A stretch of DNA of 64,000 bases from Chryseolinea serpens (GTDB lineage: Bacteria; Bacteroidota; Bacteroidia; Cytophagales; Cyclobacteriaceae), in NCBI RefSeq assembly GCF_900129725.1, contig NZ_FQWQ01000005.1, positions 496,001 through 560,000 on the forward strand, read 5' to 3'. The notes under the pieces were generated by a model. The model was not told the origin of the DNA. It made no database searches and saw only the letters and a list, made by a program, of their open reading frames with translations. Numbering within the stretch: the first letter of the stretch is position 1; the number at the start of each line of letters is the position of its first letter. The translations under genes and the position numbers were made by a program. Below, one piece after another: positions 47,959-60,763 of this stretch.

Positions 47959-48001
47959 TCTACCAATTTGATAGACATTTAAAATTTCCTTTTTACTTTT
48001 G
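47959..48001 (+). promoter_or_regulatory. Promoter with 17-base regulon operator (copy 1)
   Basis: Near-palindrome TCTACCAATTTGATAGA (47959-47975), read as TCTAcCAA-T-TTGaTAGA. A -33 TTTG lies in its right half (47967-47970) and a -7 box TACTTTTG at 47994-48001. The same motif, with variation, occurs before three other units at 50876, 54174 and 56682. It should drive the YeiH-type transporter gene through a long leader. Confidence 0.62.
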
Positions 48002-50875: not shown

Positions 50876-50925
50876 TCTATAAAAACTATAGACTTTATTT
50901 GTTTTGAGAAATTTTTATATCTTTA
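50876..50925 (+). promoter_or_regulatory. Promoter with 17-base regulon operator (copy 2)
   Basis: TCTATAAAAACTATAGA (50876-50892) has the outer TCTAT/ATAGA arms of the shared operator. TTTG at 50898-50901 and TATCTTTA at 50918-50925 form -33 and -7 boxes. The first mini-ORF starts at 50931, 5 bases after the -7 box, so translation may begin at the first base of the RNA. Confidence 0.52.
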
Positions 50926-50930
50926 CCCCC

Positions 50931-51002
50931 ATGAAACGGCGCTGGTTCAAGTGTTTTTCACTTGGGCCACTTTTTCACACCAGTCTTCAGACTGGCATTT
51001 AA
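50931..51002 (+). CDS. Leader peptide, 23 residues, probably leaderless
   Basis: The peptide starts MKRRWFKCFSLGPLFH and has one Cys at position 8. Its coding sequence contains a hairpin CAAGTG-TTTTT-CACTTG (50948-50964), and its last codons lie in the intrinsic terminator that follows. Arrangement (promoter, mini-ORF, terminator) is that of a transcription attenuator. Whether it is translated cannot be proved from sequence. Confidence 0.45.
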   Translation: MKRRWFKCFSLGPLFHTSLQTGI

Positions 51003-51012
51003 TTTTTTTTTG
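50980..51012 (+). terminator. Attenuator-like intrinsic terminator in a leader
   Basis: Stem CCAGTC / GACTGG (50980-50985, 50990-50995), loop TTCA, then a T-rich run ending in nine T. It lies about 330 bases before the next full-length gene and overlaps the end of the first mini-ORF. Confidence 0.78.
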
Positions 51013-51019
51013 AAAGAAA

Positions 51020-51139
51020 ATGAAACATACTCAACTGCACACACCAAACCAGAAGGACTCCACCATCCGCACGCGCCCTCACCGGCGCCTCATCTGTTGT
51101 TGTTTGCAGTATAAAATCCCTCATAACATGAAGGACTAA
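51020..51139 (+). CDS. Poly-cysteine leader peptide (39 residues, CCC)
   Basis: The ATG at 51020 is 9 bases after a GAAAG sequence. The peptide begins MKHTQLHTPNQKDSTIR, and residues 21-28 read HRRLICCC, with three consecutive TGT codons at 51095-51103. It is the first of three mini-ORFs with 3-4 consecutive Cys codons within 5 kb. A ribosome that runs out of Cys-tRNA would stall here, so I infer cysteine-responsive control of the gene at 51326. Confidence 0.6.
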   Translation: MKHTQLHTPNQKDSTIRTRPHRRLICCCLQYKIPHNMKD

Positions 51140-51241
51140 CCGGCACTCCCGGTCAACTGAACAAAATCAAAAAGAATTTTCTCATCTCACCGGATCCCAA
51201 CAAAAGATCCCCAACAGAAGAGAATTAACCAAATGGCTGGC

Positions 51242-51309
51242 GAATGCACCTGCTTGACAGAACTATTGGTGGTAGGTCTGTTAAAAGGGTGCATTCCGTA
51301 GCCACCAAT
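51242..51309 (+). ncRNA. Pseudoknot-type leader RNA, riboswitch-like
   Basis: Three helices interlock. P1 pairs GAATGCACC (51242-51250) with GGTGCATTC (51288-51296). P2 pairs ACAGA (51257-51261) with TCTGT (51277-51281). The P2 loop sequence ATTGGTGG (51265-51272) is exactly complementary to CCACCAAT (51302-51309), which lies just before the Shine-Dalgarno sequence AAAGGAG of the next gene. Forming or breaking the pseudoknot could open or close that site. I do not recognise it as a known class. Confidence 0.55.
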
Positions 51310-51325
51310 CGAAAGGAGAAATGAA

Positions 51326-51847
51326 ATGACGCGCAGCGGATGGAAAAGATTTCTTTTTATCGGGATGCTTCTCACAACGGGCTTGACACTCGCGCAGGAA
51401 CACAAGCAGAACGCTGAAGCCAATGGCTCATCTCCTTCGGCCTCTGCCCGTAAAGCCAACCCCGTCGCCAGCACCCGGCAGGTCTACATAGCAGCGGGCG
51501 AAAAGTCAATTGACGCGGTCTCGCTCTGCAAACAAAAACAAAAAAATATTCGCGCCTGTGGCGTGGCCGTTGACCCGTATCAGCCGGAGTTTGATTTATA
51601 TACCAGCAAAGTAGTGCTGCTGCGGATCGCGAAAGCGCATACGTGGCAAGACGATAAGAGTCTTCAAGGGTTGAAGGCGATTGCTTCGGCAGAACCTTAC
51701 GCGGTTATTGTGATAGCGGAAGAGGGAGCGGTGGTGAATGATTTTCCGGCGTTGCCTTTTCCGGTGGTCGCGGTGGCGGCGAAGGATTCGTCGTTTGTGA
51801 TCCAGGCGGCGGAGAGGAGGCAGCAGGTTTCGATTTTGGTGCGGTGA
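51326..51847 (+). CDS. Secreted protein of unknown function behind a complex leader
   Basis: 173 residues with a signal peptide (about residues 1-23, LFIGMLLTTGLTLAQ). ATG 51326 is chosen because ATG 51321 stops after two codons. The mature part has two Cys (SLCKQ, IRACGV), then a beta/alpha pattern (SKVVLLRIAKAH, YAVIVIAEEGAVV, FPVVAVAAKD). No family recognised. The extensive leader (operator, two mini-ORFs, terminator, pseudoknot) suggests tight control. The last 150 bases are G-rich and C-poor compared with the rest of the gene. Confidence 0.65.
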   Translation: MTRSGWKRFLFIGMLLTTGLTLAQEHKQNAEANGSSPSASARKANPVASTRQVYIAAGEKSIDAVSLCKQKQKNIRACGVAVDPYQPEFDLYTSKVVLLRIAKAHTWQDDKSLQGLKAIASAEPYAVIVIAEEGAVVNDFPALPFPVVAVAAKDSSFVIQAAERRQQVSILVR

Positions 51848-51866
51848 TGAAATGGCTGCTTGGGAA

Positions 51867-52092
51867 TTCGTTGATGAAGAACTCCAACGAAGACGTGGGG
51901 TTTTGATTTTGGTTGGTAGAGAGGCTGGTTTGCGGAATTTTGTTGGTGAGGAACACCAACAAAGGCGGGGTTTCCGAAAAAAACTTGTTGGTGGGACACC
52001 AACAAGTGGGTGGGTAGCTTGTGAACTTGTTGGGTAGAAACATTAACAGGGCACGGGTTCTGAATGAGCTTGTTGGTGGGAAAACCAGCAAG
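51867..52092. repeat. Cluster of palindromic repeats (cluster 1)
   Basis: Four hairpin-forming copies of one family. 51867-51891: arms TTCGTTG/CAACGAA, degenerate. 51939-51963: arms TTTGTTGGTG/CACCAACAAA, loop AGGAA. 51983-52007: arms ACTTGTTGGTG/CACCAACAAGT, loop GGA. 52069-52092: arms CTTGTTGGT/ACCAGCAAG, one mismatch. Two more copies lie at 59678 and 59743. The consensus is TTGTTGGTG - short loop - CACCAACAA. This resembles REP-type elements; no REP-associated transposase is in the window. Confidence 0.8.
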
Positions 52093-52141
52093 TGTTGGCT
52101 GGCCTGTGAAGATGTTGATGGTAAGAAAAAAAGGAATGGCT

Positions 52142-52900
52142 ATGGAAAAAGATATGAAAGCGATTGAATTGCCGACGGTGCCGCTTTTCGATGTGGGAGA
52201 GGGGGAGCCGATTATTTTGTTGCATGGGTTGTTTGGGAACCTGAGCAATTGGGGACAGGTGGCGTTTGAGTTTACGGCTACCCATCGTGTGCTCATCCCA
52301 AGGTTGCCACTGTACTCCACACCCTTGACGCGCGAGCGACTGGATAATTTGGTGGACTATGTGGAGAATTTTATTGAGGAACTAGGGTTGGAACAGGTTA
52401 CGCTGATGGGCAATTCTTTAGGAGGGCACATCGCGTTGCTGTATGCGTGGCGTCATCCGGAGAAAGTGAAGAAGCTGGTGTTGGCGGGCAGCTCGGGGCT
52501 GACGGAGAATTCTTTTGGAGGTACGTTTCCGAGAGTGAAAGACTATGACTACATCCGCGAACGGGTGGAGAATACATTTTATAAACGCGAAGTGGTGACC
52601 AAGCAATTGGTGGATGAAGTGTATGAGACCGTGCAAAGCCGCACCCGTACACTCAGCATCATCGGACTGGCGCGGGCGGCGCAGCGTCACAATGTCACCG
52701 ATATGTTGCGCGAGATCAACACGCCCACCTTGCTGATTTGGGGACGGCAGGATACGATCACGCCGCCGGAAGTGGCGCTCGAGTTTCACGACCTGTTGCC
52801 GCGGTCGCAAGTGATTTTTTTAGACCAGTGTGGGCATGTGCCCATGATGGAACATCCCAAGCTTTTCAACCGACATGTCAGAATTTTTTTGGAGCAATAA
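52142..52900 (+). CDS. Alpha/beta hydrolase
   Basis: 252 residues from ATG 52142, six bases after AAGGA; the frame is open upstream but through a palindromic repeat. IILLHGLFGNLSNW is the oxyanion segment, GNSLGGH holds the nucleophile Ser, WGRQDTITPPE the acid Asp and DQCGHVPMMEHP the His. The full Ser-Asp-His set suggests an active esterase or meta-cleavage-type hydrolase. The 3' end overlaps the sterol-desaturase-like gene by 26 bases, so the pair is coupled. Confidence 0.9.
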   Translation: MEKDMKAIELPTVPLFDVGEGEPIILLHGLFGNLSNWGQVAFEFTATHRVLIPRLPLYSTPLTRERLDNLVDYVENFIEELGLEQVTLMGNSLGGHIALLYAWRHPEKVKKLVLAGSSGLTENSFGGTFPRVKDYDYIRERVENTFYKREVVTKQLVDEVYETVQSRTRTLSIIGLARAAQRHNVTDMLREINTPTLLIWGRQDTITPPEVALEFHDLLPRSQVIFLDQCGHVPMMEHPKLFNRHVRIFLEQ

Positions 52901-54104
52901 TGCCATCAACTATGCGGCGTTGGCCATACCCGCATTCTTTTTGTTTTTGGGGCTGGAGTATGTCGCGGCCATCCGGCAACGGAAGACACACGTTTTCAAC
53001 TTCGATAGCTCGGTGGCCAACATCAGCATCGGCATCGCCGAGCGTTTGCTCAACCTGTTTTTGACGGCCAGCTTTTATGGCGTGTTCACCTATATATATG
53101 AGCACTTTGCTTTGTGGGCTATTCCCAATACGTGGGGAGTGTGGGTGATGTTGATCCTGGTCACGGATCTGGTGTGGTACTGGTATCACCGGCTGGGACA
53201 TGAAATAAATTTATTTTGGGCGGCACACATCGTGCACCATCATAGCGAGGAATTCAACTACAGCGTTTCGGCGCGCATCACCACCTTGCAATCCATCGTG
53301 CGCAATGTGTTTTGGTCGGTGTTGCCACTGGTCGGATTTCATCCGGCGATGGTCATGACCATTCTGGTGGTGCATGGCACATATTCTTTCTTTACGCATA
53401 CGCAACTGATCCGTTCGTTAGGGTGGCTGGAACACATTCTGATCACGCCCTCGCATCACCGGGTGCACCATGCTTCCAACGAAAAATACCTCAATAAAAA
53501 CTATGGCGACCTGTTTGTGTTTTGGGACAAGCTGTTTGGCACGTTTCAAAAAGAAGAAGAGCAGCCGGTATATGGGCTCACACATCCCTTGAAGAGCTAT
53601 AGTTTTATCTGGCAGCACTTTCATTATTTTCTGGAGCTGCTATACGCCACAAGACAAGTCAGCGGCATCGGCAACAAACTGAAAATTGTTTTTGGTCCGC
53701 CCGAGATGTTGGATCAAAACATCCGGCCGTTGTTGGAAAAACGTTTCATCCCTGACCGGCGCGAGACCAACGCATTGGTCCGGTTTAAGGTTTATCTCGT
53801 CATTCAGCTGGGATTGGCCCTCGTGGTGCTTTTCTTTATCACACTGTTCTATCAACAAACTCAACCGCTGGAAAAAGTGGTGGGCACGCTTTTTATTTTG
53901 ATCACGCTGGTAAACTGCGGTGCCTTGCTGGAGCAGCGCCGATGGATCTATTACCTCGAATACCTGCGCCTGCTGGTGGTGGTAACGTATGCATCCTATA
54001 TAATAGAGCGCCCGGAACTTTTGGCGGGAGTTTTGGTTGTCAGTCTGGCCATGCTGTGGCCCATGCAGAAATGGTATCTGCGATTGGTGTATGGGCAGGG
54101 TTGA
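52875..54104 (+). CDS. Sterol desaturase/fatty acid hydroxylase family protein
   Basis: 409 residues, membrane protein with about eight helices. The di-iron His boxes are HRLGHE (HxxxH), HIVHHHSEEFN (HxxHH) and HHRVHHASNEKYL (HxxHH). LITPSHHRVHHASNEKYLNK and YGDLFVFWDKLFGTFQKEEE are typical of bacterial family members that hydroxylate or desaturate lipids. The C-terminal about 150 residues add further membrane helices. It is coupled to the upstream alpha/beta hydrolase. Confidence 0.92.
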   Translation: MSEFFWSNNAINYAALAIPAFFLFLGLEYVAAIRQRKTHVFNFDSSVANISIGIAERLLNLFLTASFYGVFTYIYEHFALWAIPNTWGVWVMLILVTDLVWYWYHRLGHEINLFWAAHIVHHHSEEFNYSVSARITTLQSIVRNVFWSVLPLVGFHPAMVMTILVVHGTYSFFTHTQLIRSLGWLEHILITPSHHRVHHASNEKYLNKNYGDLFVFWDKLFGTFQKEEEQPVYGLTHPLKSYSFIWQHFHYFLELLYATRQVSGIGNKLKIVFGPPEMLDQNIRPLLEKRFIPDRRETNALVRFKVYLVIQLGLALVVLFFITLFYQQTQPLEKVVGTLFILITLVNCGALLEQRRWIYYLEYLRLLVVVTYASYIIERPELLAGVLVVSLAMLWPMQKWYLRLVYGQG

Positions 54105-54142
54105 AAAAAAATAATTTTGCGATAAAGAAACCTTCATGACCC

Positions 54143-54190
54143 TTGCATCGTTTTGTATTTTATATTAGGTTTGTCTATCGATTTGGTAGA
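54143..54190 (+). promoter_or_regulatory. Promoter with 17-base regulon operator (copy 3)
   Basis: -33 TTG at 54143-54145, 20-base spacer, -7 TAGGTTTG at 54166-54173. The operator TCTATCGATTTGGTAGA follows immediately (54174-54190) and overlaps the expected start site, a repressor position. The SAM-I-like riboswitch begins about 23 bases on. Confidence 0.65.
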
Positions 54191-54212
54191 GATTAAAACA
54201 AGCCGATCGAAT

Positions 54213-54318
54213 CATTTATAAAGAAGAGGGGAGAGAACAGGCTCTGCGAACCTCTAGCAACTTTCTGGAAAGAATAAGTGCTACATCCTGCCCGAAAACA
54301 ATATGGGTATATAAAATG
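54213..54318 (+). ncRNA. SAM-I-like riboswitch
   Basis: P1 pairs CATTTATA (54213-54220) with TATAAAATG (54310-54318, one bulged A). P2 pairs AGAGG (54225-54229) with CCTCT (54251-54255), with an inner helix AGAG/CTCT (54232-54235, 54242-54245) and the core GCGAA before CCTCT, as in the SAM-I kink-turn region. TAGCAAC, then AAGTGCTACATCCTGCC, match the SAM-I core (GGCAAC, and GGTGCTAA-TCC-TGC). The 3' strand of P1 contains the start codon of the following mini-ORF. SAM binding would close P1 and could hide that start. Confidence 0.7.
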
Positions 54319-54429
54319 AAAAACATGAACACAACACAATCTTCGCACAACGTGCATCCTCATCCGTCAGCATCGCCTTCCCATCAACATACGTGTTGCC
54401 GTGCAACGGGATCGTGTTGTTGTTGCTGA
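54316..54429 (+). CDS. Poly-cysteine leader peptide (37 residues, CCRATGSCCCC)
   Basis: Starts MKNMNTTQSSHNVHPHPSAS and ends HTCCRATGSCCCC-stop, so six of the last eleven residues are Cys, the final four consecutive. Its ATG lies in P1 of the SAM-I-like riboswitch. Downstream to 54672 there are small hairpins (for example TTCTTT/AAAGAA near 54452) and a 12-residue mini-ORF ending in Cys at 54536-54574, too weak to call alone. The dioxygenase gene follows at 54673. Confidence 0.6.
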   Translation: MKNMNTTQSSHNVHPHPSASPSHQHTCCRATGSCCCC

Positions 54430-54672
54430 ACCATCTTTCGGAATTCTCTTTTTCTTTGTGAAAGAATAGCCGGGTGAATCAGCCTGCTGGAATTCCACTG
54501 TCATCATCATCATCAAAGTTTAAAACACTGTCACCATGAAACGTGCACGATTCGTGTATCCCTATCGATGTTAAGCGGATTTGAGATCCTCTCTCGGATA
54601 GTCATCATATCATAAAATACAGTGTCACATTTAATCAACAAAATTTTTTTAACCACCAAATTCGAAATCATC

Positions 54673-55521
54673 ATGTCAACGTATAAAAAATTTACATTCC
54701 AGGGCGCACTCACACAGGAACAGATCACCTTCTTCCAGGATAATGGCTTTATTCATTTTGAGAACTACGCTTCACAAGACACCGTGCAGGAGATCATCCG
54801 CTCCACGGAAGAAGTGCAAAGGCAGTGGGTGGCCGGAGGCGTGGAGAAGGTGAATGGCATACCGATCAAATACGGCGTGGACGAGAATGGAAAAAAAATC
54901 GTGCAGCGCTTTGCCTTCACCAATCAACATAGTGAAGCCGTACGCCGCTTTGCCGCGCATCCCAACCTGGACGCGTTGAAGGCCCTCATGCCCAAAGGCG
55001 CACGCCTGGGGCTGGAAGAAAAAGATGGCGTGGTGTTCAACCACTACGTGAACACCGAAGGCAGCAACTTCTTCCACATGGGCTGGCACACCGACAGCGC
55101 CCGCGACATCTTCTATGGCAAGAAGGTGGCCCCCATGCTGAACATCGGTTTCTATCTCGATGACTCCACCGCCCAAAAAGGTGGTCTGCGCATTTTGCCC
55201 GGCACACACAAACAAGGCTTGTGGGACTTGTTGTTTCGCAAAAAATATTTCGTGAACAACTACGCCGACGAAAAAGAAGTGCTGGTGGAAGCCAAAGCCG
55301 GCGACCTCGTGATCCACGACGGAAGGATCTGGCACCGCGTGGCACCCTCGCCGGTGACCGGTGAAGCCAGCCGCCGTCGCGTGATGTATATCCCGATGAT
55401 CGTCGGAAAATATCAACCCAAAACGGAAAAGAGCGCGACGCCTTTGTACCTGCATCTGCTTCCGTTTGTGAGCACGAAAAAACATAAAAAGCTGGTCCCT
55501 GCTTTTCGCAAAGCAGCGTGA
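54673..55521 (+). CDS. Phytanoyl-CoA dioxygenase (PhyH) family protein
   Basis: 282 residues from ATG 54673. The Fe(II) triad is His139 and Asp141 in MGWHTDSARD, plus a distal His in IHDGRIWHRVAPS. The 2-oxoglutarate Arg is in ASRRRVMYIP. It should be an iron/2-oxoglutarate oxygenase; the substrate is not a lipid by necessity. The riboswitch and poly-Cys leader before it suggest a sulfur-containing substrate, such as a sulfonate or a sulfur amino acid derivative. A strong terminator follows. Confidence 0.88.
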   Translation: MSTYKKFTFQGALTQEQITFFQDNGFIHFENYASQDTVQEIIRSTEEVQRQWVAGGVEKVNGIPIKYGVDENGKKIVQRFAFTNQHSEAVRRFAAHPNLDALKALMPKGARLGLEEKDGVVFNHYVNTEGSNFFHMGWHTDSARDIFYGKKVAPMLNIGFYLDDSTAQKGGLRILPGTHKQGLWDLLFRKKYFVNNYADEKEVLVEAKAGDLVIHDGRIWHRVAPSPVTGEASRRRVMYIPMIVGKYQPKTEKSATPLYLHLLPFVSTKKHKKLVPAFRKAA

Positions 55522-55528
55522 TGATAGG

Positions 55529-55566
55529 GCGTTGCCCGCGGCGACACGGGCAACGCTTACTTTTTA
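55529..55566 (+). terminator. Intrinsic terminator after the PhyH-family gene
   Basis: Perfect stem GCGTTGCCCG / CGGGCAACGC (55529-55538, 55547-55556), followed by TTAC and a run of five T. Confidence 0.88.
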
Positions 55567-55639
55567 TTAGGATGATTTTTAACAGAGAATACCGATCGAG
55601 ATAAAAAGAATGTCAATCGTTTTAAAACCAAATCAAAAA

Positions 55640-55687
55640 ATGAATTTTCGTGTCAACGGTTTGACGCTGATGCCCTGTTGTTGTTAA
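55640..55687 (+). CDS. Poly-cysteine leader peptide (15 residues, CCC)
   Basis: MNFRVNGLTLMPCCC, encoded from 55640, with three TGT codons at 55676-55684 directly before TAA. An intrinsic terminator follows 18 bases later, and the ATP-grasp gene starts at 55762. Order promoter-peptide-terminator-gene, with tandem codons for one amino acid, is the textbook arrangement of ribosome-mediated attenuation. GCTGATGCC (55666-55674) can also pair with GGCGCAGC (55706-55713) at the base of the terminator, which would compete with it. Confidence 0.65.
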   Translation: MNFRVNGLTLMPCCC

Positions 55688-55705
55688 TCCACTGCCCACC
55701 ACCAT

Positions 55706-55737
55706 GGCGCAGCCGCGCCGCTTTTAATTTTTTTTTT
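55706..55737 (+). terminator. Attenuator terminator before the ATP-grasp gene
   Basis: Stem GGCGC / GCGCC (55706-55710, 55715-55719) with loop AGCC, then CG and a run CTTTTAATTTTTTTTTT. It is intrinsic in form and lies 25 bases upstream of the ATP-grasp start, downstream of the CCC leader peptide. Confidence 0.75.
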
Positions 55738-55761: not shown

Positions 55762-56670
55762 ATGTTTAGCACTGTTGAAAAACCCATTGGAATCTTTTAT
55801 AGTTATGAAGAATGGTTCAATCCCCTGTTTCGCGAATTGGAACGAAGGGGTTTGCCGTATGTGAAGCTCGATCCCGCCCGGCAATGGTTCGATTTGTCGG
55901 AAACGGATGTGTCCTATAGCCTGCTCTATAATGATATGAGCTATCCCTCGTATGTGGATGGCCCATCACAGGCCAACCTAAACCTGCAACCCTACCTGAG
56001 CCACCTGGAACAACACCATGTGCCCGTCATCAACGGGTCGGTAGCCATTGCGTTGCAACGATCAAAGACACAACAACTTTTATTGTTGCGCAGCCTGGGC
56101 CTGAGTTTCCCGACGACCCGGATCGTGACGCACGCCAACCAGTTGACCGTCGCGACGAACGGATTCAAATTCCCCATCATCCTGAAAGGCAACGCCGGCC
56201 GCGGAGCGGAAACCGTGCTTGTAAAGTCCATCCAAGACCTCAAAGAGGGTTGGGAAGATGGAACGCTGGCCTTGCGGGATGAACAACCGTGGATCCTCCA
56301 GGAATGGATTCCCGCCAAGGGCAACCACGTGGTGCGCGCCGAAGTGATCAACGGCAACTTTCAATACGCCGTAAAACTTTATCGCACGCCCCACGACATC
56401 GACTTCTGGACGGCCGACAACGAACCCTTCCAACCTTCCCTAACGATCGTTAAAGCGATCGAAAAAATTGCGCGTGCTGCGCGGTTGGAGGTGGCCAGCG
56501 TGGAATTTGCCATCGACCGGCGCGATAATCAACCCTATTTCTACGCCATTCACGCCCATTCCAATTTCATTGTGGGCCACCGGCCTGGGGGGCACGATGC
56601 CTATGCCAGCCTGGCCAATCATATCGAATCGCGACTGCAAAAAAGACGGGAAATAGAATTAATTCTATAA
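55762..56670 (+). CDS. ATP-grasp family enzyme (RimK-like)
   Basis: 302 residues from ATG 55762. ATP-grasp motifs: GFKFPIILKGNAGRGAETVL (glycine-rich loop and Lys), EEWIPA-like LQEWIPAKGNHVVRAEVING, and SVEFAIDRRDNQPYFYAIHA (metal-binding region). The N-terminal domain resembles the RimK/glutathione-synthase fold (IGIFYSYEEWFNPLFRELER). Such enzymes join a carboxylate to an amine or thiol with ATP. Poly-Cys control suggests a role with cysteine, for example making a Cys-containing peptide. Substrate unknown. Confidence 0.85.
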   Translation: MFSTVEKPIGIFYSYEEWFNPLFRELERRGLPYVKLDPARQWFDLSETDVSYSLLYNDMSYPSYVDGPSQANLNLQPYLSHLEQHHVPVINGSVAIALQRSKTQQLLLLRSLGLSFPTTRIVTHANQLTVATNGFKFPIILKGNAGRGAETVLVKSIQDLKEGWEDGTLALRDEQPWILQEWIPAKGNHVVRAEVINGNFQYAVKLYRTPHDIDFWTADNEPFQPSLTIVKAIEKIARAARLEVASVEFAIDRRDNQPYFYAIHAHSNFIVGHRPGGHDAYASLANHIESRLQKRREIELIL

Positions 56671-56681
56671 ATCCGCTTACG

Positions 56682-56715
56682 TCTATTGACTTGATAGTGT
56701 TTAATACTAAATTTG
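56682..56715 (+). promoter_or_regulatory. Promoter with 17-base regulon operator (copy 4)
   Basis: TCTATTGACTTGATAGT (56682-56698) is the fourth copy of the TCTA-N9-TAG(A/T) motif. It overlaps a -33 TTG (56686-56688). A good -7 box TAAATTTG lies at 56708-56715, 19 bases later. The TonB-dependent receptor starts at 56746. Confidence 0.65.
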
Positions 56716-59658: not shown

Positions 59659-59677
59659 TGATCCCAAAGGGAAAAGA

Positions 59678-59767
59678 GCTTGTTGGTAGGACACCAACAA
59701 GCGTGGGTGGGTTTTTGGTTGAGGGGGTCCCAAAGGGAATAGGTTGTTGGTGAAGAACACCAACAAC
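59678..59767. repeat. Palindromic repeats (cluster 2)
   Basis: Two copies of the same family as at 51867-52092. 59678-59702: arms GCTTGTTGGT/ACCAACAAGC, loop AGGAC. 59743-59767: arms GTTGTTGGTG/CACCAACAAC, loop AAGAA. Each is preceded by TCCCAAAGGGAA, itself a small palindrome (59662 and 59728 regions), so the repeat unit is about 65 bases and tandem. They lie between the receptor and the TauE/SafE gene. They could act as terminators or mRNA stabilisers. Confidence 0.78.
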
Positions 59768-59872
59768 GGCGTCTTGACAAGTGAGGGATCGCTCTTTTGG
59801 AGGGCGATCTTTTCTCGTTAGGTGGGGGGCGATGGAGGAGGTAGGGGAAATAAAAATAAAGACAAGCGAACT

Positions 59873-60763
59873 ATGGAAGTAGCTGAAAAAAATGTGACGA
59901 GTAATAGGAGGGCCATTTTGGGTGTGATGGTGGCTGCGGGGGTGTTGGTGGTGTTGGCTTCGGTTTTTTATTTTGATGTGATTGTGGATCGGGGGGGTGA
60001 GTGGCTTGAGGGTGTGGGGCCGGAGTTTTTTCTTTTTGTGTTGGGGGGATTTATTGCGCAGATGATCGATGGGTCGTTGGGGATGGCATATGGGGTGAGT
60101 GCGTCCACGTTTTTGATGTCGTTTGGGGTGCCGCCGGCGGCGGCGAGTGCGAGTGTGCATACGGCGGAGATCTTTACCAGCGGGGCGTCGGGGCTTTCGC
60201 ATTTGCGTTTGCAGAATGTGAATAAGAAGTTGTTCCGGAGCCTCTTGCTGCCGGGCATTGCCGGGGCGGTGACGGGAGCTTACTTGCTTTCTTCTTTCGA
60301 GGAATATAACTACATCCTAAAGCCCATTGTGGCAACGTATACGCTGGTGCTCGGCGTCATTATCGTGCGCAAGGCCATTCGAAAGCATCAGCCAAAAACG
60401 AAAACTAAAAATATTCCGGCGCTCGCCTCGTTTGGAGGGTTCATGGATTCCATCGGCGGTGGTGGGTGGGGGCCAATCGTGGCTTCGACGCTGATCGCCA
60501 AAGGCCGGAATCCGCGCTACACCATCGGGTCGGTGAACCTGGCGGAGTTCTTTATCTCGTCGGCCAGTTCCATCACGTTCTTTGCGACCATTGGCGTGGG
60601 ATATCTTCATATTATCGTGGGACTTATCCTCGGTGGGCTCGTTGCCGCACCCATCGCCGCGCAGCTTACCCGGAAGTTGCCCGTAAAAAAAATAATGATC
60701 ATTGTGGGTGTGGTCGTCATCCTTGTCAGCGTCCGTTTGATCGTGAAAGCCTTCCTTGCCTGA
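59873..60763 (+). CDS. TauE/SafE family sulfite/sulfonate permease
   Basis: 296 residues from ATG 59873; the longer frame from 59822 begins in a purine-rich leader. Eight membrane helices. Family motifs: GGFIAQMIDGSLGMAYGVSA near the first helix, GSVNLAEFFISSASSITFFA, and the second G-G-F-M-D-S-I-G-G-G-G-W-G repeat at about 205-218. Members export or import sulfite, sulfoacetate, sulfonates or sulfur-containing anions. The first 330 bases are C-depleted (G and T rich), unlike the rest of the gene. Confidence 0.92.
   Translation: MEVAEKNVTSNRRAILGVMVAAGVLVVLASVFYFDVIVDRGGEWLEGVGPEFFLFVLGGFIAQMIDGSLGMAYGVSASTFLMSFGVPPAAASASVHTAEIFTSGASGLSHLRLQNVNKKLFRSLLLPGIAGAVTGAYLLSSFEEYNYILKPIVATYTLVLGVIIVRKAIRKHQPKTKTKNIPALASFGGFMDSIGGGGWGPIVASTLIAKGRNPRYTIGSVNLAEFFISSASSITFFATIGVGYLHIIVGLILGGLVAAPIAAQLTRKLPVKKIMIIVGVVVILVSVRLIVKAFLA

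Follow-up and report, generated by a model that had tools for sequence, protein, structure and literature searches.

What are three short open reading frames (ORFs) with runs of consecutive cysteine (Cys) codons doing within one region of a Bacteroidota genome, and do they belong to the control of sulfur metabolism? The question arises from a stretch of 64,000 nucleotides (nt) of Chryseolinea serpens (contig NZ_FQWQ01000005.1, positions 496,001 to 560,000; hereafter the window), which comes from a genome of 8.36 Mb in 10 contigs. A first-pass annotation had reported three such ORFs on the plus strand and proposed that they sense cysteine supply as leader ORFs. We found all three in the sequence (leaders 1 to 3; Table 1), and the second one is joined to an S-adenosylmethionine (SAM) riboswitch of the SAM-I class. 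Judged by sequence comparison, this central element of the window is a member of a recurrent architecture of Bacteroidota, in which a SAM-I riboswitch is followed by a poly-Cys leader.

Leader 1 (MKHTQLHTPNQKDSTIRTRPHRRLICCCLQYKIPHNMKD) has 11 codons between its CCC and the stop, leader 2 ends in CCRATGSCCCC and the stop, and leader 3 (MSIVLKPNQKMNFRVNGLTLMPCCC) ends in CCC-stop at 55687. Each of the three intergenic stretches contained one ATG-started ORF of 8–60 codons with CCC. In 2000 dinucleotide shuffles, such ORFs numbered 0.0035 on average and one at most, and three were obtained in 0/2000, which agrees with the earlier statement that consecutive Cys codons are rare by chance. The three poly-Cys ORFs are real and not chance occurrences. 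Ten CCC runs were found on both strands of the window, and six of the seven further runs overlapped a reading frame of at least 100 amino acids (aa), the exception lying near 1459 on the minus strand. Leaders 1 and 2 had no match to an NCBIfam family.

The Cys runs and their frames were kept in the congener G213. In leader 1, the frame and CCC were retained while all 7 substitutions in the ORF altered the residue. In leader 2, CCCC-stop was retained; the G213 ORF lacks 9 nt, which keeps the frame, and differs in the codons immediately preceding the run. In leader 3, the frame and CCC-stop were retained from 55610, and 10 of the 11 changed codons altered the residue. The first-pass annotation had placed the third ORF at 55640-55687 (MPCCC-stop), which appears to be too late a start: a start at 55610 is more likely, because the frame is open from there in G213 and the ATG at 55640 is lost there.

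The SAM-I riboswitch was the sole Rfam match at the gathering score in the window, and leader 2 starts on the last bases of its aptamer; another ATG in the same frame, at 54325, lies 7 bases behind the aptamer, which is the spacing usual for such leaders. Seven SAM-I riboswitches (RF00162) were identified in the whole genome. Behind five of them stands a leader with three or more consecutive Cys codons and behind the sixth a leader with Cys-Cys, while the seventh precedes metH, a gene named here by its sequence. The leaders behind the first six end in CMCCCCACCC, CCCCC, the terminus of leader 2, CCCC, CCC, and HCCHS, and the genes behind them are metY, a gene for a protein without a Pfam match, the PhyH-family gene of the window, a Glu/Leu-type dehydrogenase gene (behind HCCHS), and two sulfatase genes. 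The suggestion of a nearby riboswitch or terminator thus held, with the riboswitch at ORF2 and a terminator behind ORF3, and what had been overlooked was that the riboswitch and the leader recur together as a unit.

We analyzed 60 genomes of the family, 58 of which had SAM riboswitches (156 matches), and examined 95 loci (7 from this genome and 88 from others). The selection was not random: loci were taken mostly in order of score, genomes G015 and G017 were added deliberately, and L061 and L063, near contig ends, were excluded. Leaders with at least three consecutive Cys codons were found at 31 of 67 non-metH loci, whereas none of the 28 metH loci had one (Fisher p = 1.6e-6), and shuffled gaps yielded such a leader in 0.07% of cases. 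An ORF of at least 15 aa started 2–15 nt behind the aptamer at 52/67 non-metH loci, with leader starts 7–9 nt behind it in 41/53. The P1 helix of the aptamer could be extended outward by a mean of 2.32 base pairs (bp) at the 31 poly-Cys loci and 1.89 bp at 37 other loci, compared to 0.63 bp at 27 metH loci (28 in the leader count, which followed a slightly different rule) and ~0.70 bp in shuffled sequences. The spacing of the ORF starts and the extension of P1 together indicated that the leader start adjoins the helix that SAM stabilises.

To see the breadth of the architecture, 84,980 species were scanned with an exact pattern consisting of the aptamer core, an ATG in any phase, and four Cys codons. 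At least 80 stretches matched; being selected by the pattern, they show breadth and not frequency. Among the matches listed, 76 had an in-frame leader, of which 75 were labelled Bacteroidota and one Thalassobius. The latter (L185) is a contig of a metagenome-assembled genome whose metY gene is as in the Bacteroidota loci, and it is probably mis-binned. Four listed matches, from Obscuribacterales, Syntrophomonadaceae, Paenibacillus, and Bacillus, had no leader. The first pattern match was in phase with the leader ATG at 71 of the 76 listed leader loci versus 0 of the 4 leaderless matches. Two of the 76 leaders (L159 and L188) have only three of the four selected Cys codons in frame. Rfam confirmed SAM-I in 17 of 18 listed loci tested, and the eighteenth (L178) has its core at the very end of the stretch, which cuts it. 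Tandem riboswitches were not seen: the window and each of these 17 loci had a single Rfam aptamer.

The genera among the matches listed included Pontibacter, Rufibacter, Chryseolinea, Ohtaekwangia, Fulvivirga, Nafulsella, Cesiribacter, and Chitinophaga, as well as Psychroflexus of the Flavobacteriaceae. By its N-terminal motif, metY was the downstream gene at 54/76 of these loci. Family tests identified O-acetylhomoserine/O-acetylserine (OAH/OAS) sulfhydrylase, CysH, NirA/sulfite-reductase-like proteins, and sulfatases, and also a YfhL-type ferredoxin, with MetX and OsmC-like matches both under the cut-off. The leaders are short ORFs ahead of sulfur genes with consecutive Cys codons near the stop, as in the mycobacterial type. 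A loss of the Cys codons in related genomes, which the first-pass annotation had named as a refutation, was not observed. Kept in the congener and recurrent before sulfur genes of Bacteroidota, the Cys codons lend comparative support to the proposal that these ORFs may act as sensors.

In a phylum-wide Rfam sample, 69 loci were looked at, for which 9 loci of one set of 30 were taken. A short ORF with at least three consecutive Cys codons lay between aptamer and gene at 6 of 42 loci of the same class, a group that includes the order and family of C. serpens (0 of the 5 loci from family genomes in this sample), and at none of 27 loci outside the class. Two of the six Cys leaders (L243 and L259) start well behind the aptamer. 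In L259, the SAM riboswitch is followed by its own strong intrinsic terminator (-14.9), a separate Cys leader (CCCC...CCC), and a gene of the phosphoadenosine phosphosulfate (PAPS) reductase kind, as judged by eye.

How might such a unit work? We consider it probable that the composite 5' leader senses two end products of sulfur assimilation and would operate as a NOR gate for SAM and cysteine with a readout by the termination factor Rho. The SAM-I riboswitch comes first, and its P1 stops just short of the start codon of a leader of ~20–60 codons in which the Cys run comes last. With SAM bound, P1 would be stable and ribosomes would be blocked from the leader start; with SAM low, the leader would be translated and serve as a cysteine sensor. 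Ample Cys-tRNA would let the ribosome reach the stop and leave, and scarce Cys-tRNA would stall it on the Cys run, where it would shield the C-rich, G-poor RNA around the stop from Rho and allow the gene to be transcribed. Since the stall would need both low SAM and low cysteine, the gene would be on only when both are low, an output that would suit metY, cysH, sulfite reductase, and sulfatase genes. Leaders 1 and 3, which have no riboswitch, would sense cysteine only, the former followed by a structured RNA and the latter by a terminator. A wider proposal is that the SAM-I aptamer gates ribosome entry onto the poly-Cys leader, so that a single transcript forms the NOR gate. Such a gate would be used by Cytophagales and some orders close to them, where an operator palindrome and, within one clade, a new structured RNA would add further layers. 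The chances of this proposal seem to us evenly balanced. The Rho-dependent step, in which the stalled ribosome would act as the shield, is more tentative, and we would put it somewhat short of even.

The make-up of the 76 listed leaders fits a sensor of this kind. Their longest Cys run was 3–9 codons and the last run touched the stop in 49/76. They contained 523 Cys codons (307 TGT and 216 TGC), and for comparison the downstream genes had 109 Cys in 14,380 codons. The following analyses used 74 loci, as 2 of the 76 had no downstream gene in the stretch. C exceeded G in 73/74 leaders and 74/74 gaps, compared to 43/74 downstream genes, 16/23 metH gaps, and 95/154 other upstream regions. The RNA at and behind the leader was therefore C-rich and G-poor, as Rho-dependent attenuation would have it, and a rho gene is present in the genome.

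Several observations weigh against this mechanism. The richness in C supports Rho only indirectly. A terminator test behind metY genes, where some terminators are expected, found only 4/40, so its power is low, and little weight can be given to the lack of terminators in the leaders. At the SAM-leader loci, weak T-run hairpins were somewhat more frequent than in shuffles (14/74 versus 12.2% at -6 kcal/mol, and 31/74 versus 24.9% at -4 kcal/mol). The final 60 nt of the leader and gap taken together folded better than their shuffles (mean z -2.03), a result that would fit a structural switch as well, and RNA structure may thus still play a part. In the family sample, 36 of the 67 non-metH loci lacked a run of three Cys codons (9 had two and 27 had fewer), and some metY leaders lacked any Cys pair. 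In this genome, the three matches to PF01507 (sulfate-reduction-type genes) had no short CCC frame in the 1500 nt upstream. The arrangement of L259 indicates that gating of the leader is not universal.

Of the other explanations, the one that survives best, though we regard it as rather unlikely, is that of two independent tandem controls, in which the riboswitch by itself would act on transcription or on the main mRNA, and the Cys leader would attenuate separately further down, its translation not being gated by SAM. L259 is laid out in this way, and leaders 1 and 3 and that of L368 occur without an Rfam riboswitch. The clustering of leader starts directly behind the aptamer and the extension of P1 at leader loci and not at metH loci argue against it.

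Translational attenuation, in which the stalled ribosome would open a structure that hides the start of the main gene, is unlikely in our view. It could draw on the folding of the last 60 nt mentioned above, on the 150 nt before these genes (z -1.24 versus -0.59 before other genes), and on the structured RNA that adjoins the gene start downstream of leader 1 and at 7 further loci. However, the start sites of the 74 downstream genes were predicted to be more open than those of 81 controls (0.63 versus 0.50, the control starts being first ATGs and possibly wrong), which speaks against hiding of the start site, and the Cys run paired with the gap hardly more than expected by chance (mean z -0.62).

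Less likely still is classical transcription attenuation with an intrinsic terminator. It fits leader 3, whose terminator has the same predicted energy (-10.1 kcal/mol) in this genome and in G213, and also the slight excess of weak T-run hairpins at SAM-leader loci. But terminators at or below -8 kcal/mol were found at only 7 of the 74 loci versus 5.1% of shuffles, in the low-power test described above, and no antiterminator was recognised for leader 3 in one fold of 106 nt, the region folding no better than shuffles (z -0.01).

That the ORFs encode working Cys-rich small proteins for metal binding or redox chemistry is very improbable: their frames are open and extra Cys are common outside the run, yet in the listed loci the peptides differ widely outside the run, with 4 to 11 Cys per leader, most substitutions in the congener change the residue, and the position between riboswitch and gene is constant. 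A (UGY)n RNA motif that is bound by a protein and reads as Cys incidentally, or mere chance, can practically be dismissed, since TGYTGYTGY is indeed a short repeat but the phase of the pattern with the leader ATG, the single in-frame Cys codons, and the near absence of such ORFs from shuffles all tell against it.

Leader 3 lies between the PhyH gene and the ATP-grasp gene of the window. Among eight ATP-grasp loci looked at, a short CCC frame was present in four (the window, L302, L303, and L307) and an Rfam SAM riboswitch in L302 and L303; L307 had the CCC frame only, and L304, L305, L306, and the paralogue L311 had neither. The homologue of family member G027 (L303) lies behind a riboswitch and a CCCCCCC leader, and in G190 a riboswitch and a CCC leader lie ~1.1 kb upstream of an ATP-grasp homologue. 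Five Pontibacter homologues (32–34% identity) lie behind a SAM-type core and a CCCCCC(C) leader, with Rfam confirmation for L147. The 173-aa protein behind leader 1 was found beyond this genome only in G213 among 39 genomes searched.

The RNA at 51234-51309, between leader 1 and this gene, folded far better than expected (z -6.13) and is a candidate for a new cis-regulatory RNA. A model of it (R1) detected 8 copies in 4 of 59 genomes (L353-L358 included), 3 of which were already in the model; two weak matches on the opposite strand were excluded from the count. All 8 copies follow a Cys leader, with its stop 44–133 nt upstream of the copy, and one of them also follows an Rfam SAM riboswitch. 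G190 has a ninth copy, ahead of a gene that by eye resembles the PF03601 gene of the window, with no Cys leader between. Support for the structure comes from its fold energy, its recurrence, and its pairing relative to slid controls, while covariation was weak (its score was reached by 113/500 shuffles) and no Rfam family matched. R1 is not general to SAM-leader loci: in 79 sources, good matches were restricted to the window, L316, and L349, all already in the model. Upstream of the Cys leader in L355-L358, degenerate SAM-like boxes that Rfam did not call were seen by eye; candidate explanations are decayed riboswitches or variants with another ligand.

A palindrome, GTCTAT-N8-TAGA, may add a further layer. 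It occurs at 11 sites in the genome, with 13 strand matches versus 3 for the reversed pattern. At eight of the 11 sites a Cys leader follows; leaders 1 and 2 are among these eight, and one of the eight has CC only. One leader preceded by the palindrome, ending in ...AMGCCC, lies ahead of a sulfatase gene without an Rfam riboswitch, and a ninth site is ~550 nt upstream of the PF03601 gene. In addition to the two copies in Table 1, the window has one at 47959-47976 and a weaker one at 56682. The metY leader and leader 3 have no palindrome. By its placement, the palindrome is a putative operator at which a shared regulator likely acts, probably a regulator of sulfur metabolism.

Table 1 Features of the C. 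serpens window (coordinates counted from its first nucleotide).
Feature	Coordinates	Strand	Remarks
Palindrome GTCTAT-N8-TAGA	50876..50893	none	Upstream of leader 1, putative operator; contig 546876-546893
Leader ORF 1	51020..51139	+	39 aa, CCC; no SAM riboswitch
Structured RNA, possible pseudoknot UUGGUGG/CCACCAA	51234..51309	+	Ends 16 nt before the next start codon
Gene for 173-aa protein, first behind leader 1	51326..51847	+	No Pfam match
Palindrome GTCTAT-N8-TAGA	54173..54190	none	Upstream of SAM riboswitch; contig 550173-550190
SAM-I riboswitch aptamer, RF00162	54213..54317	+	69.5 bits versus gathering score 44.4
Leader ORF 2	54316..54429	+	37 aa, CCCC-stop
PhyH-family dioxygenase gene, first behind riboswitch and leader 2	54673..55521	+	Pfam PF05721, 2.3e-18
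Terminator-like hairpin behind the PhyH gene	55527..55558	+	Stem largely kept in G213 (by eye)
Leader ORF 3	55610..55687	+	25 aa, CCC-stop; no SAM riboswitch
Intrinsic terminator, hairpin and T run	55705..55720	+	Between leader 3 and next gene; -10.1 kcal/mol
RimK-like ATP-grasp protein gene behind leader 3	55762..56670	+	Pfam PF08443, 2.7e-5
TauE/SafE-type exporter gene	59873-60763		Further down the window; PF01925

Some candidates upstream of leader 1 did not survive. The first-pass annotation had begun the region at 50931, implying a further ORF (MKRRW...), and frameshifts break this frame in G213, leaving it without support; a terminator-like hairpin at 50980 was likewise not kept in G213. 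A hairpin of ~10 pairs at 50943-50969 was kept there with a U-G to U-A change. Repeated intergenic palindromes of the type TTGTTGGTG...CACCAACAA were seen by eye at 51860-52110 and 59660-59770.

The two parts of the architecture have known counterparts. Mycobacterial poly-Cys ORFs are said to have been termed leaderless and cysteine-responsive attenuators in work by Canestrari in 2020; ORF2 does not appear to be of the leaderless type, as a 105-nt aptamer stands directly before it. As a SAM-I riboswitch (RF00162), the aptamer scores well above the gathering score, and unlike in the usual SAM-I riboswitch, the element right behind it is the start of a leader ORF and not that of the main gene. 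Like tandem riboswitch logic gates, of which a SAM-I/adenosylcobalamin (AdoCbl) pair is a known NOR gate, the unit places two sensors in one 5' untranslated region (UTR) with a predicted Boolean output; unlike in these gates, the second sensor is a leader with Cys codons and not an aptamer or T box. The paper on the tandem riboswitch gates made no mention of leader peptides, upstream ORFs (uORFs), attenuation, or Bacteroidota. In tnaC and mgtL, which are Rho-dependent leader attenuators, the position of the ribosome on the leader ORF decides the access of Rho; the arrangement here differs in its input amino acid and its upstream aptamer.

Leader ORFs with Cys runs have been described for actinobacterial cys operons and cbs (Seliverstov 2005, PMC1262725). 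As far as the accessible text of that paper goes, they share with the leaders reported here the short ORF, the Cys runs near the stop, the position ahead of sulfur genes, and apparently the lack of a conserved terminator hairpin, with Rho weakly suggested by its authors (PMC1262725). The present leaders differ from them in lying behind a SAM-I aptamer, in another phylum, and ahead of metY, sulfatase, cysH, and other genes. The Cys-Cys leader uORFC-8-2 of cysS in Rhodobacterales likewise has tandem Cys codons in a leader ORF, and the available part of its description gives it an intrinsic terminator, describes no SAM riboswitch, and places it at another gene in another class (PMC8632094). In transcriptome studies, leader-peptide attenuation before amino-acid operons in general is on record for Flavobacterium (PMC9723704) and short ORFs reminiscent of leader peptides for Bacteroides (PMC7366714). 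A SAM-II riboswitch acting at a distance has also been described (PMC9373788). The combination of a SAM riboswitch with a Cys leader was not found in a literature search by title and abstract start, covering mostly non-subscription papers. The riboswitch and the Cys leader are thus each of a known kind, while their fusion and its use appear to be new.

To our knowledge, little is understood of how Bacteroidota control their supply of cysteine and methionine. Here, comparative genomics points to a concrete and testable regulon ahead of metY, the sulfate reduction genes, and the sulfatase genes. The leaders also provide a simple marker for sulfur-linked genes whose function is unassigned, among them those for the ATP-grasp and PhyH proteins of the window. 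If the proposed mechanism is true, the architecture would be a natural device with two inputs, a riboswitch serving as one of them and the ribosome itself as the second.

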